NCBI GenBank assembly: GCA_963575745.1
Contig: CAUYUJ010014626.1
Span: 132,774-196,773, forward strand
Length of the DNA stretch: 64,000 bases
Reading direction: 5' to 3'
From: Prorocentrum cordatum
Lineage: Eukaryota; Sar; Dinophyceae; Prorocentrales; Prorocentraceae
Shown: positions 11,485 through 26,937 of the stretch, piece by piece
How the letters are laid out: every line of letters begins with the position of its first letter
Numbering within the stretch: the first letter of the stretch is position 1
The notes under the pieces: generated by a model
Told to the model about the DNA's origin: nothing
Databases searched by the model: none
What the model saw: only the letters and a program-made list of their open reading frames with translations
Made by a program: the position numbers and the translations under genes

Positions 11485-11665
11485 CCTGGAGGCCGCTGTA
11501 GCAATCGGGCCGATCTCTAGGATGAAAGGGCAGATCATCAGGATGATACAAGCTCATCGCACCTGGATCGGTGCGAAGCTTGCTGCCGCCAGCAACCAGC
11601 CTTGCTCTTACGAACTCTTCCACGTCAGTCTGCTCGATGGAAACTGGCTCAGGGAGGCACTTCAC
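11485..11665 (-). CDS. Cryptochrome exon 4
   Basis: Encodes VKCLPEPVSIEQTDVEEF and GAMSLYHPDDLPF, followed by HPRDRPDCYSGLQ, which fits the DLPF...PDVFT region of CRY-DASH proteins. The acceptor is GCAAG/GTGAAG. The 3' border is uncertain: a TAG follows soon after CTCCAGG, and CCAGG/GATAG would be a GA donor. Confidence 0.8.
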
Positions 11666-12853
11666 CTTGCAGAGATTGCGTTGTGATTCACATCACAGCG
11701 GGACTCTCAGTTGAGATATGACAACGACAAGACGCCCGGGTCGAGTGCTGGACACCTTTTCAGGAAACGAGCCGCTGGGCATCGTTTATCCGAACCCTAT
11801 CCCCATCTAGGTGGCCTTTTCTCCACTTGGGGATTTACCCCCCGAGATGGGGATATAGGCCGTCTCCCTCGGGTTTTGGAGGGTATATCCCCAAGTCGGG
11901 GGCGGCGGGAGGGGGTGGGCTGGTGGGAGGCTTCATGGGGTTGGGGTTGGGTTAACCGATAAGCCTGTGATAGCTAGACACGCCAGCACGAGCGAATGAG
12001 CCGGGCAAGCCTTCCACGAGCTGCTCAAGGAATACTGCGCCGGGTGGTAAATTGCACGTCTTGTGCTGATCGACCAGGTTGCACCCACAGTGGGACGCAC
12101 ATGGACATACTAATACTATATGTCCTCCTTGGAGGCGCGCGTCCGACCCCAACATATAGTATACCCATCTTGTAGTATATCGTTTCCCGAGCGGTGTGGC
12201 CAGAAAGCGCCCGCCACGACGCATATACTATAAGATTTCTCGGTGCGCGCGTCGCCCCTGGGGGGGCGACGCACATATAGTATAAGTATGTTGGGGTGTT
12301 GCACCCACAGCGCCGACTGCAAGTAGGAGTTACTGAAATGGGGAAGCAAGACAGCAAGGAACGCCAAAAAAGGAGACAAGCTGAAGCCACTTACGCTGAG
12401 CCGCACTGGGGCAGACAGGCTGAGGCAGGCTGGCCACACCCAACCTGAGCTGAAGATTAAACTGTACGTTTAGCTAAGAGACGCTAGTTTAAGCTCTGAC
12501 GCTGAGCGAAGCTAAATCAAGTCGAACAATGCTCAGCAACGCCACGTTGAGCTATCCCACACCCCACCAAGCCAGCCATGCAAAGCCGAGCGAGGATAAG
12601 CAAAGCTTAACAAAGCCACACGAAGCTGCGCGGCGCTGAGGCTCGCAGAGCTAAACCAAGGCAAGACGAGCCACACAACGCCACTCCAAACTGAACTCTG
12701 CCAAGCTACACCAACGAAGACTGAGCCAACATTAGAAGCGAGAGTTAAATACATTCAGTAATTCAAATGCCCACGCTAAGGCTAGAATCGGCGCCCCAAC
12801 AAACCCGAATTATGTTCAGATCTCTGGGGGAAGGTTCGGAGTGCTTATATAAG

Positions 12854-15800: not shown

Positions 15801-18644
15801 GTTCGATGAGTCAGGTTCAGCGAGGCTGAGCCGAGCTGAGGGAACCTGAGTTCAGCTGAGCAGGGTCGTGCCCGAAGTCCACGCGGTGGGAAAGAAGTCA
15901 GAGCGAGAGGAGCAGCAGGAGAGGCATCGGCGCGGCGTGGCTGCAGGCTCTGCTCGGCTCACGGACATGCCTCCTGGCTGACGTCTTGACGCCTGCTGGC
16001 CGAGGCCCCGAAGTCGCGGTTTTGACTCTGAGCACGAACCTCCCGAGTGGCAAGATACAGCGCCGTCCCAACTTGAATCTGCGGGTTCTCACGCCCGAAT
16101 CCCGAGTGTACTAGCACGCATGCGGCATCCGAGGGGAGTCCGAATCCCGAAGTGACCTTTCGAAAGGCTGCACCCCACCCCAAGCCTTCTAAAAAGAGTC
16201 CAGAGGTTCTGCCCTCAAACGGCAGCATGATTCAGCGATTTTACCCCGAAGCTGGTGCGGCCCCCCCGAGGGACCCTGCCGGGACGCTGACAGTGCGACG
16301 GGCCTGGCAAGCCAGCCCTCTTCCCGGGTCTCCCGAGGCCCTCGTCCGCACAAAGCTCCTGGGCTGAAGACGGAAAACAACTGCATAAACAGAAACTTTC
16401 GGAGTTCCGCGCGGATGTCTTGGATCTGCGCTGGACCCCCCTCCCTGGCGTGCGGAGCGTGCCGGGGGGCAGCGCCGGAGTCGCCGCCAGGGTCCCCGCG
16501 CCGATGCAAGAACCCGCCCGAAGCTGCAGAAGTTTGTGCTTATGCCGCTTGTTCTTTTGCTGGCCCAGGCCCTCGTCCGCCCCAAGTGCCTGGGCAGCTG
16601 CTTTCTTTTTGTTTCTCTCCCCAACGCAACACCGCGAGGCTGCGCAACAGCGTGAAACGGAGCAGCGAAAGGCGGCCGTTAACCCGCACGTGCCCGCGTG
16701 CAGAGTGCCCACGGGGCAGCTGCTTTCCGTCCCCCGGTCCAGCCTCGGAGCCCTCGGGCAGCGCGCCCAGCACGTCCTCCGGCCGGCCGTGGCACACCAG
16801 CAGCCGAGACCCGCGCCGCTCCAGCTCCTGGGAACGCACACAGACACACGTGTGCCGTGTGTCCTCCCTGGAGGCTTGCGCGCGACCCGAGCACATGCAG
16901 CACAGCCATCTGATCGGATCCCGAGCGGCACGGCCAGATAGCGCCCGCCACGAAGCGCATACGAGAAGGTAGCTGAGCGCGCGCATCGCCCCTGTGGGGG
17001 GGGGGGGGGGCCACGCACACATAGTCTTAGTATGCTTGCGCGACGCCGACTCCTCACCCAGGCGGACGACGCACTGGAGCCAGAAGCGCGCGCGCAGCGC
17101 GCAGGTCTTCCGCGCCGAGAAGGTAATCGGCTTGCGGGTGGGGATGGACCTCTGGCAGGCCGGGAACCCCTCAGATCTTGGCGCTGCAATCGTTTCGCAA
17201 CTCGCGATTTCGCCCAATTTCGGGCCCCGGGACCCTCACCGATCGATCCGGGCCGACAAATGGCGCAGAAGGATGGGGCCCCGGACCCGAGTCGTGTTTT
17301 TTTGCGACGATGCAGTCTTGAGTTGTGCAACGTCGGAGCCCCGGGTCTGGCGGCAGTACGCCAGAGAGCCTGCTCTGGGGGCCTACGGCAGGTTCGTGTC
17401 GTGCCGACTTCGGCGTTGGTTTCTGACACCGCGGGGATCGTTCAACCTTGAACGATCGGCCGTTTCCGAAACGTCCAAGTCGTTCCACATCGAGCGATTC
17501 TGGGTCGCCCGTGGCGTTCAACATTAAACGCCGCTGGCGGGGTCGCCGCCGGTCGACAACACGCGAACCTACCGTGGGCCACGCCTGGGTCCGGGCAGAG
17601 GCGAGCCGACCGGAGGAGGGAGGAGGAGGAGGAGGAAGGAGGAGGATGAGGAGGAGGAGGAGGAGGAGGAGGAGAAGAAGAAGGAGGAGGAGAAGGAGGA
17701 GCAGGGGGACGAGCACGCCGTGCGCGGGGTACCAGGCGCGGCGCACCCGCTGGGCTCTCGCGCCGGCTGCGCCGCGCCCGGGCCAGCCCGATGCACCCCA
17801 AGAGGGCCCCAGGGCGCACTCTCTCCGAGCGCGGCCGCCAGCTTCTGGCAGAGGAGGAGAGAGGAGAGGGGAGGGGAGGGGAGGGGAGGGGAGGGGAGGG
17901 GAGAGGAGGGGAGAGGAGATGCGAGGCGAGGCGATGAGACATACTAATACTGTAAGTCCTCCTTGGCGAGGAGGGGAGAGGAGGGGAGAGGAGAGGAGAG
18001 GCGAGGCGAGGCGAGGCGAGGCGAGGGAGTGGGACGCACAGAGACATACTAATACTGTAAGTCCTCCTTGGAGGGGCGCGTCTGGCCCGAACATATAGTA
18101 GACCCATCTTGTAGTATATCGTTTCCCGAGCGGTGTGGCCAGAAAGCGCCCACCGCGACGCATATACTATAAGATTTCTCGGTGCGCGCGTCGCCTCTGG
18201 GCGGGCGACGAACATGTAGTATGAGTATGTTGGTGTGACGCCGAAGGAAATCCAATTTTCGGGCCATGGCTCGGGTCTCCGGCGGCCGTTTGGGACGATC
18301 CGGGCACCCCAGACGCCTTTCGGAGAGGCGCAGCTGCTGGAGAGCATCCTGAGGCTGGGAGACCGCCAGGAACCGACGAAAGCACCCCGAAAACCTCGAC
18401 CTTTGAAGGCGGCCGACCTCTTGAACTCTGGATCGGTCACGCGGCCGTAGGGCGACCTGTCCAGGAAGCGCGGGTCGAAGCAGAACACGGCCGTGAACGG
18501 CCGCCTGTCGGCCAGGGCCGCACCTACCACCGCCCGCAGCACTGGGTTGTCCTGCACCCGCAGGTCGTTGCGGGCCCACCAGACGCAGGGCCCAGTGCTC
18601 GTCGGGATGACCCGGGCCTCCAAAGAGGGGCCACCGAAGGACAT
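11485..18644 (-). CDS. CRY-DASH-type cryptochrome/photolyase, N-terminal part in four exons (3' end not found)
   Basis: Flavoprotein family that senses blue light or repairs UV-damaged DNA. Only the N-terminal antenna (alpha/beta) domain is visible. I read exons 18644-18418, 17149-17053, 16827-16744 and 11665-about 11485. Joined, they stay in frame for about 196 residues and give family motifs in the right order: VWWARNDLRVQDNP, FCFDPRFL, RARFWLQCV, GSRLLVCHGRPEDVL, EPVSIEQTDVEEFV and GAMSLYHPDDLPF. The last is typical of the DASH class. Introns are 1268 nt (GT-AG), 225 nt (GA-AG) and 5078 nt (GC-AG), the donor mixture known from dinoflagellates. The ATG at 18644 follows an in-frame TAG, so it may be the start, but an upstream exon is possible. 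The FAD-binding C-terminal half is not recognisable between 1 and 11485. It may lie beyond the window, or the copy may be truncated. The identification is strong. Splice sites are inferred from reading frame and family alignment, not from RNA. Confidence 0.85.
11818..11990. repeat. Dispersed repeat with inverted arms, copy 1
   Basis: GGGGATTTACC and GGGTATATCCCC form an imperfect stem around GATATAGGCCGTCTCCCTCGG; the right end has GGGTTAACCGATAAGCC. About 150 bp is shared with 43255-43405. Lies in cryptochrome intron 3. Confidence 0.65.
12091..12297. mobile_element. Dispersed element, copy in cryptochrome intron 3
   Basis: About 207 bp flanked by a perfect 13-bp direct repeat, GTTGCACCCACAG (12078-12090 and 12298-12310). 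The termini are near-perfect inverted repeats, ACATACTAATACTATATGT against ACATACTTATACTATATGT. The core GAGCGGTGTGGCCAGAAAGC is shared with the 18.1-kb copy. There is no coding capacity, so it is a non-autonomous element. Confidence 0.75.
12440..12760. repeat. GCTAAGC-like low-complexity stretch in intron 3
   Basis: Short A/G/C motifs such as AAGCTAA, CGAAGCT and GAGCTAA recur irregularly. Similar GCTGAGC phrases recur near 15.3-15.85 kb. Confidence 0.5.
12859..12970. repeat. CA then GA microsatellites
   Basis: CA run 12859-12896, then GA runs to 12970. Confidence 0.9.
14380..14466. repeat. GAG microsatellite
   Basis: GAG triplets with GAC and GTA interruptions, embedded in the CCCAAGA-type repeats of intron 3. 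Confidence 0.9.
14640..16320. other. Intron 3 sequence without a supported gene
   Basis: Mostly unique DNA between the cryptochrome exons at 16.7 and 11.7 kb, with AGCTGAG/GCGAAGC short motifs. A Leu-Arg-rich minus frame near 15.5 kb is discussed under rejected items. Confidence 0.4.
16320..16640. repeat. Cluster of CCGAAAGTTCATGCTTATG-family units
   Basis: At least two units in opposite orientation (16378-16455 minus, 16518-16585 plus), plus two copies of a GGCGGACGAGGGCCTGGG-like block. The family recurs at 25620-25725, 39700-39770 and twice near 63.63-63.80 kb. Lies in cryptochrome intron 3. Confidence 0.6.
16744..16827 (-). CDS. Cryptochrome exon 3
   Basis: Exactly 28 codons, from ELERRGSRLLV through CHGRPEDVLGALPEGSE. 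This is the GS-x-LLV-x-x-GxPE strand and helix of photolyases. The donor is GC (GAG/GCTGG). Joining to exon 4 gives GSEVKCLPEPVS with no frame change. Confidence 0.8.
16828..17052 (-). mobile_element. Introner-like element forming cryptochrome intron 2
   Basis: This 225-nt intron is almost entirely one copy of a dispersed element that also occurs at 12091-12297, 18030-18244 and 19752-19924. The element (16830-17049) lies between two AGGAG pentamers, one at each splice border. Removing the element plus one pentamer restores the coding frame, which is what target-site duplication by an intron-making insertion would produce. Donor GA, acceptor AG. Confidence 0.7.
17053..17149 (-). CDS. Cryptochrome exon 2
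   Basis: A 97-nt exon carrying SARKTCALRARFWLQCVV, the conserved helix after the FDPRF strand. Reading to GGT GAG and then splicing to GAG CTG restores LGEELERRGS, which has the usual family spacing. A GT donor four bases earlier (CTGG/GTGAGG) would give the wrong frame with an AG acceptor. Confidence 0.8.
17388..17582. repeat. Palindromic dispersed repeat, copy 1 (in cryptochrome intron 1)
   Basis: Shares about 190 bp with 42535-42726. It contains the perfect palindrome GATCGTTCAACCTTGAACGATC split as ten-base arms, and a second near-palindrome GGCGTTCAACATTAAACGCC. Borders: CGGCAGG.TCGTGTCG at left, CCACCGT-like at right. Confidence 0.75.
17614..18025. repeat. Purine-rich minisatellites in intron 1
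   Basis: GAG/GAA triplets (17614-17705), GGGGAGAG and GGGGAGGG units (17855-17930), then GGGGAGAGGA and GGCGA units (17965-18025). Confidence 0.85.
18030..18244. mobile_element. Dispersed element, copy in cryptochrome intron 1
   Basis: Very close to the 12.1-kb copy through the core and both AT-rich termini (ACATACTAATACTGTAAG and the ACATGTAGTATGAGTATG end). No clear flanking duplication is visible, because the left side runs into GAGGCGAGGC repeats. A 31-bp fragment of the same left end sits at 17936-17966 within the same purine-rich repeats. Confidence 0.75.
18245..18404. repeat. Dispersed repeat in intron 1, copy 1
   Basis: About 160 bp matches 26505-26655 at roughly three bases in four, with shared GGCGGCCGT, GGGACGATCC, GAGGCGCAGCTG and CCCGAAAACCTCGA. 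It is intronic here, so the protein-like reading in both copies (NALHQLRL) is not cryptochrome. Confidence 0.65.
18418..18644 (-). CDS. Cryptochrome exon 1
   Basis: Encodes the first strand of the antenna domain, with VWWARNDLRVQDNP and FCFDPRFLDRSPYGRVTDP. It ends in AAG AG before GTCGGC. The pentamer AGGTC occurs at both splice borders, so the exact cut is ambiguous, but the GT-AG reading completes an Arg codon. A dispersed repeat (18660-18842) starts just upstream of the ATG. Confidence 0.85.
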
Positions 18645-19039: not shown

Positions 19040-19437
19040 TTCTCAAGGATTCCGATTGTGAGGAATTCCAATAGAATCCCTTGTGGCGCTTTCCAGAGGA
19101 TTCCGATTGTAATGCTTTCCTGTGGAATCCCTTTCTGGCGCTTTCCAAAGGATTCCGATTGTGAGGCTTTCCAATAGAATCCCTGTGTGTCGCTTTCCAA
19201 AGGATGCCTGTTGTGAGGCTTTCCAATAGAATCCCTTTGTGGCGCTTTCCAAAGGGTTCCTGCTGTGAGGCTTTCCAATAGAATCCCTTTGTTGCGCTTT
19301 CCAAAGGATTCCTGTTGTGAGGTTTTCCAATACAATCCCCTCGTTGTGCTTTCCACCGGATTCCTGCGGTGTGGCTTTCCAATAGAATCACTTTGTGGCG
19401 CTTTCCAAAGGATTCCGATTGTGAGGCTTTCCAAAAA
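19040..19437. repeat. 52-bp tandem array built from 26-bp half units
   Basis: GAGGCTTTCCAATAGAATCC recurs at 19163, 19215, 19267, 19319, 19371 and 19423, exactly 52 bp apart. Each unit is two related 26-mers (GATTCCGATTGTGAGGCTTT and GAATCCCTTTGTGGCGCTTT). The minus strand stays open across the array, but the frame changes with every unit. Confidence 0.9.
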
Positions 19438-19632: not shown

Positions 19633-19747
19633 CTCCTCCTCCTCTTCCTCCTCCTCATCCTACTCCTCTTCCTCCTCCTCCTCCTCCTCCTCCTCCTCCT
19701 CCTCCTCCTCCTCCGCCTCCTCCTCCTCCTCCACCTCCTCCTCCTCC
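19633..19747. repeat. CTC microsatellite
   Basis: CTC with CAT, CTT and CCG interruptions. Confidence 0.9.
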
Positions 19748-19751
19748 GCAC

Positions 19752-19924
19752 GTCCGAACCGAACATGGAGCACAAACGCCTTATAGTAGATCACGAACTA
19801 GGCGGTGTGGCCCGAAGGCGCCCGCCACCGAGCATGCGCTAGAAGATTTCTGAACGCACAGATCCCCCCGTTGGGGGGTCGGTCGACGCGCAAACCATAC
19901 AAGCATGGTTGGGGATGCCGACGC
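19752..19924. mobile_element. Dispersed element, diverged copy upstream of cryptochrome exon 1
   Basis: Shares the core GGCGGTGTGGCCCGAAGGCG, the AGATTTCT segment and the GCCGAC end with the other copies, but the terminal inverted repeats are eroded. It abuts a CTC microsatellite. Confidence 0.55.
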
Positions 19925-26655: not shown

Positions 26656-26937
26656 AGCTCACAAGCCTCGAGCCCATTCCCCCCCTCTTCATGGTCATCG
26701 TGACTCTTTCCTGGAATTCGATCGATCGCCGTCTGGTGCAGCTGGCGCCCGCTCCGGGCGGAGCCTCGACGGCCTCCTCGTCGCGCGGTGCCTCCACCGC
26801 GGACGCCATGGCGGTGCCCCGCGCCCCAGGGGAGGGCGCAGAGTACCGGAGCCGCTGCCCGCTGGACCAAACTGGCCGCCTCGAGCGGAAGAGACTCGCA
26901 GTGACTGCACTGCTGGCGATGACAAGACTGAGCACCA

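Follow-up and report, generated by a model that had tools for sequence, protein, structure and literature searches.

A dispersed element at the borders of a probable GA-AG intron in a CRY-DASH-like gene of Prorocentrum cordatum

A CRY-DASH-like gene and its probable third intron

The DNA analysed here (64,000 nt of Prorocentrum cordatum contig CAUYUJ010014626.1; hereafter the window) carries on its minus strand a CRY-DASH-like cryptochrome/photolyase gene, of which six exons were placed from homologous proteins, among them the relative P0001. Between exons 3 and 4 lies a copy of a short dispersed element (copy A), enclosed by two copies of the motif AGGAG. The features are given below by their position in the window, together with the evidence used to place them.

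26765..26809, minus strand: exon 1 (MASAVEAPRDEEAVE); tblastn to P0001 residues 1-24, first 16 clear, joined coding sequence (CDS) open
18418..18617, minus strand: exon 2 (photolyase N-terminal domain, ARVIPTSTGP...EFKR); within a 71-aa match, 94% identity to P0001
17053..17149, minus strand: exon 3, ending GGT GAG; P0001 match and register listing
17050..17054, minus strand: first copy of AGGAG, its last three letters forming the GA donor end of intron 3; register listing and family alignment
16828..17052, minus strand: intron 3 (predicted), GA-AG, 225 nt, made up of the element and five letters of the two target copies; sole register of six with G[TCA]...AG|G
16830..17049, minus strand: element copy A, 220 nt, TCGGCG...GTTCCC, between the AGGAG copies; hidden Markov model (HMM) match and family alignment
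16825..16829, minus strand: second copy of AGGAG, its first AG forming the acceptor of intron 3; register listing and family alignment
16744..16827, minus strand: exon 4, starting GAG CTG; P0001 match and register listing
11494..11665, minus strand: exon 5 (VKCLPEPVSIEQ...); within a 60-aa match, 93% identity to P0001
5401..5498, minus strand: exon 6 (GFALGWKDIWTSAER...), 3' border not fixed; P0001 match

Joined together, the six exons gave a single reading frame, open over 232 aa and following P0001, and the next 20 kb of the contig held three more stretches matching P0001, up to about residue 324 of its 612. On these grounds the gene looks intact as far as it was seen. Both PF00875 and PF03441 were above cut-off in P0001. 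Its best NCBIfam model was TIGR02765 crypto_DASH, at 206 bits under a cut-off of 317, and the FAD-binding part of the gene itself lies outside the exons placed. One relative from Crypthecodinium cohnii carries the name Cryptochrome DASH. The homologue set (n = 25) comprised 24 proteins from one protein search and one from another; among the 24, six are named as transcripts and most of the others lie on contigs of about 2 kb.

A preliminary description of this DNA had placed the interrupted region at 16744..17149. These limits stand, with an exon at 17149-17053, an intron at 17052-16828 and an exon at 16827-16744, although its exons 2 and 3 become exons 3 and 4, the first exon being at 26809-26765. 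The AGGAG copies that it reported on both sides were located at 17054-17050 and 16829-16825, with the element (17049-16830) between them. It had also read LGEELERRGS, with the residue spacing of photolyases, across the joined exons, and this peptide aligned without gaps in 25/25 homologous proteins, all of them free of the insert, as well as in the aligned CRY-DASH structures.

Splice borders and the element family

Six registers of intron 3 yield the conserved protein, because AGGAG is present on both sides (all protein-conserving registers were listed). Only GGTGAG|GAGTC...CCCAG|GAGCTG combines a G[TCA] donor with an AG|G acceptor, and the predicted spliced junction of exons 3 and 4 is CTGGGTGAG/GAGCTG. 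The same G[TCA]...AG|G rule selected one register for each of the other four window introns (GC-AG, GT-AG, GC-AG and GC-AG). A GA donor is ordinary in P. cordatum, since 23.8% of its introns use one; AGG acceptors account for 79.7% (Dougan et al. 2023, PMC10666404).

Direct repeats of 3-7 nt were found at the borders of all five introns placed in the window. Summed over the five, there were 11 border matches beyond AG|G compared to 3.6 expected (p = 0.006; p = 0.011 without intron 3), values that are rough as the registers were picked after the sequence had been seen. This excess agrees with the repeated intron borders mentioned for dinoflagellates (PMC7789003). No inverted repeats beyond those of shuffles were found at the ends of the other four window introns. 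At intron 2 (17150..18417, minus strand, GT-AG register, from the register listing) the borders share 7 nt, AGAGGTC (p = 0.02 taken alone), and several dispersed and simple repeats lie inside.

The preliminary description had regarded the insert as a dispersed element whose duplicated target appeared to supply both splice borders, including a GA donor, and both parts were borne out. Three more copies occur in the window.

12091..12302, minus strand: copy B, sense orientation, in intron 4, with a long hairpin; fold z -4.93, inverted repeat in 0/500 shuffles
18030..18244, minus strand: copy C, sense orientation, in intron 2; 91% identical to copy B, HMM match 1-218
19747..19920, minus strand: copy D, in intron 1, 3' end missing where a GGA microsatellite begins; HMM match

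Across the 4.13-Gb assembly, 983 first-look candidates were found, and all 40 of those scored matched the element. The family consensus, from 45 hits aligned with three window copies (45/55 HMM hits retained at a score of at least 60), was 218 nt long with sharp ends (TCGGCG...GTCCCA, with GTGCGTCCCA at the 3' end) and unconserved flanks. The family ends coincide with both borders of intron 3; in copy A the final A of the consensus is either absent or common to AGGAG.

Exact direct repeats of at least 5 nt flanked 58/106 unique full-length copies (51 of exactly 5 nt, 7 longer), compared to 0.5% of 5000 mixed control pairs, in which flanks drawn from different copies agreed over at least 5 nt. 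These 106 copies were kept from 124 hits, 109 of which were full length and three of these dropped as duplicates or for short flanks. They comprised 75 copies from a protein query, which favours open copies, and 31 from a DNA query, with exact repeats of at least 5 nt in 45/75 and 13/31, respectively. A first count on 48 rows included duplicates (L001 = window copies A and C, L031 = L032, L011 = L013); its 43 unique copies had an exact repeat in 15 cases and a repeat with at most one mismatch in 24.

The family thus has the features of miniature inverted-repeat transposable elements (MITEs): short and fairly uniform length, many dispersed copies, a target duplication of fixed length and, in two of the three copies tested (B and C, of A-C), near-terminal inverted repeats whose score was equalled in 0/500 shuffles. 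It is therefore MITE-like, a DNA element that duplicates 5 bp of its target, and the AGGAG around copy A fits this. Given the 58/106 copies with repeats against 0.5% of controls, AGGAG is very probably such a duplication, supplying both splice borders. A 4-bp duplication (GGAG, with the final A assigned to the element) had been suggested by the window copies and was dropped, as the genome copies show 5 nt.

Several other observations were made on the copies. All four window copies lie within the CRY-DASH-like gene in sense orientation, none upstream of exon 1, a number too small to test. At sites identical in B and C, the changes in copy A run mainly from A/T to G/C (27/83 A/T sites, versus 8/101 G/C sites changed to A/T). 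Copy B has a 13-nt repeat, CTGTGGGTGCAAC, on both sides (12298-12310 and 12078-12090); the left one follows TCGGCG, as though the element's 5' end had received a copy of the right flank. An exact 25-nt core of the element had no match in one scan of viral contigs. A coding role for the element was considered and rejected, with diversity at codon positions 1-3 of 0.187, 0.158 and 0.198 in the open frame (31 DNA-query copies) giving no clear coding signal. An ancestral element with a stop in the gene frame was likewise dropped, the consensus of the 31 DNA-query copies being open there.

Elsewhere in the window, intron 1 contains a tandem array of a 52-bp unit (7.5 copies, 19045-19434), and four further dispersed repeat pairs of 75-80% identity were found (17384-17575/42533-42723; 18650-18828/33798-33975; 18256-18399/26512-26655; 26992-27293/57259-57564), which are possibly more short element families.

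Probable splicing of the insert and competing explanations

From the sequence evidence, we consider it highly likely that the insert is spliced at the GA-AG junction, with an intron born from the element as the best explanation. A non-autonomous DNA transposon of the MITE type (~218 nt, with near-end inverted repeats and a 5-bp target duplication) would have inserted in sense orientation into the CRY-DASH-like gene, at AGGAG within the codons CTG GGT GAG GAG. The insertion would have been driven by a transposase, and the presumed empty site would have been an uninterrupted CTGGGTGAGGAGCTG-like sequence. With AGGAG doubled, the first copy would have become exon end and donor (GAG|GAG) and the second acceptor and start of the next exon (CCCAG|GAG). 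The spliceosome would then choose GA over the upstream GT, and removal of 225 nt would restore the original frame and protein exactly. What was observed in the DNA and in the protein comparisons matches this, as for an introner-derived intron: the element, with the ends and 5-bp duplication of its family, has those ends at the exon borders, and removing the insert restores a protein that is conserved in the relatives.

Several findings weigh against this explanation. Three of the five repeated letters would be expected from splicing alone, because 79.7% of P. cordatum acceptors are AG|G, and beyond AG|G the intron 3 repeat had two extra matches (p = 0.17), so that taken alone it is not significant past the splice consensus. 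Copy A shares just 73-74% identity with B and C, lacks a recognisable inverted repeat (105/500 shuffles as good) and folds within the shuffle range (z -1.05). A donor-like GTGAGG, which resembles the usual donor consensus, lies 5 nt upstream of the GA donor. The insert is also a multiple of three in length and stop-free in the gene frame (open reading frame 16540-17235), as is the consensus of the 31 DNA-query copies in that frame, and the only public gene model found with the element reads through it. The preliminary description was silent on both the in-frame, stop-free 225 nt and the GTGAGG. The case rests on the element family and not on the repeat at a single site.

That gene model is P0026, named Prorocentrum cordatum, the only match when the translation of copy C was searched against proteins (399 candidates, E up to 1). 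Its residues suggested the ends GAGGA|TCGGCG and CCCA|GAGGA, and genome contig C4064 (locus L031, G000:C4064) bears those letters, with the element starting at about locus position 1733 and GAGGA on both sides. A register, CCAGAG|GATCGG...CCAGAG|GAAGTG, allows GA-AG here as well, and the joined flanks read LDSPE^EVLS. The deposited protein continues through the element for 75 codons; P0026 may be mis-modelled at this point.

The competing explanation that survives best, which we nevertheless regard as improbable, is that the element stays in the mRNA, adding 75 codons in frame, or that a fraction of the transcripts retain it. The length of the insert (225 = 3 x 75), the lack of a stop in the gene frame and the model P0026, which reads through its own copy for 75 codons as well, are all what it would predict. 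The open frame of P0026 is partly an ascertainment effect, however, because the protein was found with a read-through query; likewise, net lengths divisible by three were found in 60/106 copies of the whole set compared to 6/31 of the DNA-query set, an excess attributable to the protein-based query. The chance of 75 open codons is 25% if the composition of copy A is used, 6.5% for B and C and 17% for two of the gene's introns, and multiplied by one third for the length this amounts to a coincidence of about 1 in 12 to 1 in 46. Retention would also place the insert between P0001 residues 114 and 115, within the helix predicted for residues 99-118 (at 101-120 the blocks have a pLDDT of 89 and 96, the whole model a mean of 66.5), and 25/25 homologues lack it. 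Substitutions relative to B and C were spread over the codon positions (11/58, 13/61 and 19/65; chi-square p = 0.36). The GC content by codon position in the gene frame (0.573, 0.693 and 0.733) was unlike that of the CDS (0.690, 0.526 and 0.841), with position 3 the highest in both.

Use of CTGG|GTGAGG...CCCAG|GAGC instead (GT-AG, 230 nt), giving a frameshifted transcript and a gene partly or wholly silenced, is very improbable: its donor is the GTGAGG noted above and its acceptor is shared with the GA-AG form, but the product would hit a stop soon past the junction, whereas the six window exons are open and conserved, as expected for a gene in use. It is likewise very improbable that the element landed in an older intron at the same position, the 5-nt repeat being only splice consensus; such an origin would suit the AG|G that most introns here should have at both borders, and the 3-7 nt repeats at all five window introns, but no older intron sequence remains, both borders coincide with family ends and other copies of the family have 5-bp duplications.

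A probably ordinary MITE and the known introners

An intron born from an insertion element, as the preliminary description had it, was supported by these results; the family itself, however, looks like a general MITE. Recognisable coding exons hold 2/106 full-length copies, namely A, which was the query, and L031, which came from the protein query. Their coding-context scores (7.0 and 5.3) ranked first and second of 106, between control quantiles of 2.7 (95%) and 9.3 (99%), and 0/106 copies exceeded the 99% quantile. Coding context was unrecognised for the other 104/106 copies by this score, which is weak, of low power and trained partly on the genes of copies A and L031. Some copies lie within GGA microsatellites (L107, L105). 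On the simplest reading, the family is an ordinary MITE that occasionally inserts at a coding AGGAG or GAGGA, where it would become a GA-AG intron, rather than one specialised in making introns.

A more speculative and rather unlikely extension is that the family is doubly tolerated in exons, either as a GA-AG intron at AGGAG/GAGGA that is preferred over an upstream GTGAGG, or by read-through of unspliced transcripts. Such transcripts would sometimes be readable, as the element often has a sense frame free of stops (at least one in 25/31 DNA-query copies). If this were true, ordinary MITEs would be a steady source of GA introns without any intron-specific adaptation, explaining part of the 23.8% GA donors.

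The preliminary description had considered the element family and its site worth describing. Both are real, though the case is less exceptional than it appeared, GA donors and border repeats being known in this group of organisms. In the texts cited here, intron gain by elements with terminal inverted repeats (TIRs) and borders from target duplications has already been described, and both introner elements and GA donors are on record for dinoflagellates, P. cordatum among them. No description of this particular family was found in the literature searched, which took in parts of main texts. What the case adds is a sequence-defined, checkable instance of probable intron birth in a multi-gigabase dinoflagellate genome: with the family ends, the size of the target and the presumed empty site known, both splice borders can be traced to their origin. 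With a GA donor beside an apparently unused GTGAGG, it also makes the donor-choice rule of dinoflagellates testable in one gene.

Elements that carry inverted repeats (8-20 nt) and direct repeats (3-5 nt) near the ends are enriched in the introns of P. cordatum (PMC10666404). These introner elements are defined by pattern, with no family named in the text compared, whereas the family here is set by its sequence, its ends and its 5-bp duplication. The introner elements of Amoebophrya, likewise introns of a dinoflagellate, are bordered by direct repeats of 3-5 nt and contain inverted repeats (Farhat et al. 2021, PMC7789003), a layout comparable to the present one; they use variable splice sites, whereas the register here obeys G[TCA]...AG|G. 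Our case is also like the introners of five dinoflagellate genomes, where introns were created by diverse transposon families (Roy et al. 2023, as summarised in PMC11453091).

The closest comparison is with the introners of Symbiodinium microadriaticum and other taxa, which are non-autonomous TIR elements with a short target duplication that form an exact intron; their splice borders are recruited from the target duplication, and GA 5' splice sites make up 0 to 40% per family (Gozashti et al. 2022, PMC9860276). Likewise, a non-autonomous element here appears to have given rise to an exact intron with borders from the duplication. The Symbiodinium example has a 4-bp duplication, compared to 5 bp here, and brings its own 3' site, whereas both core splice signals here lie in the duplicated target; in the latter respect the Florenciella example in the same text is closer. 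Unlike those introners, most copies examined here were outside recognisable coding exons, by the weak score above, and our case suggests that an ordinary MITE, and not just an element specialised for introns, can yield introns as by-products.

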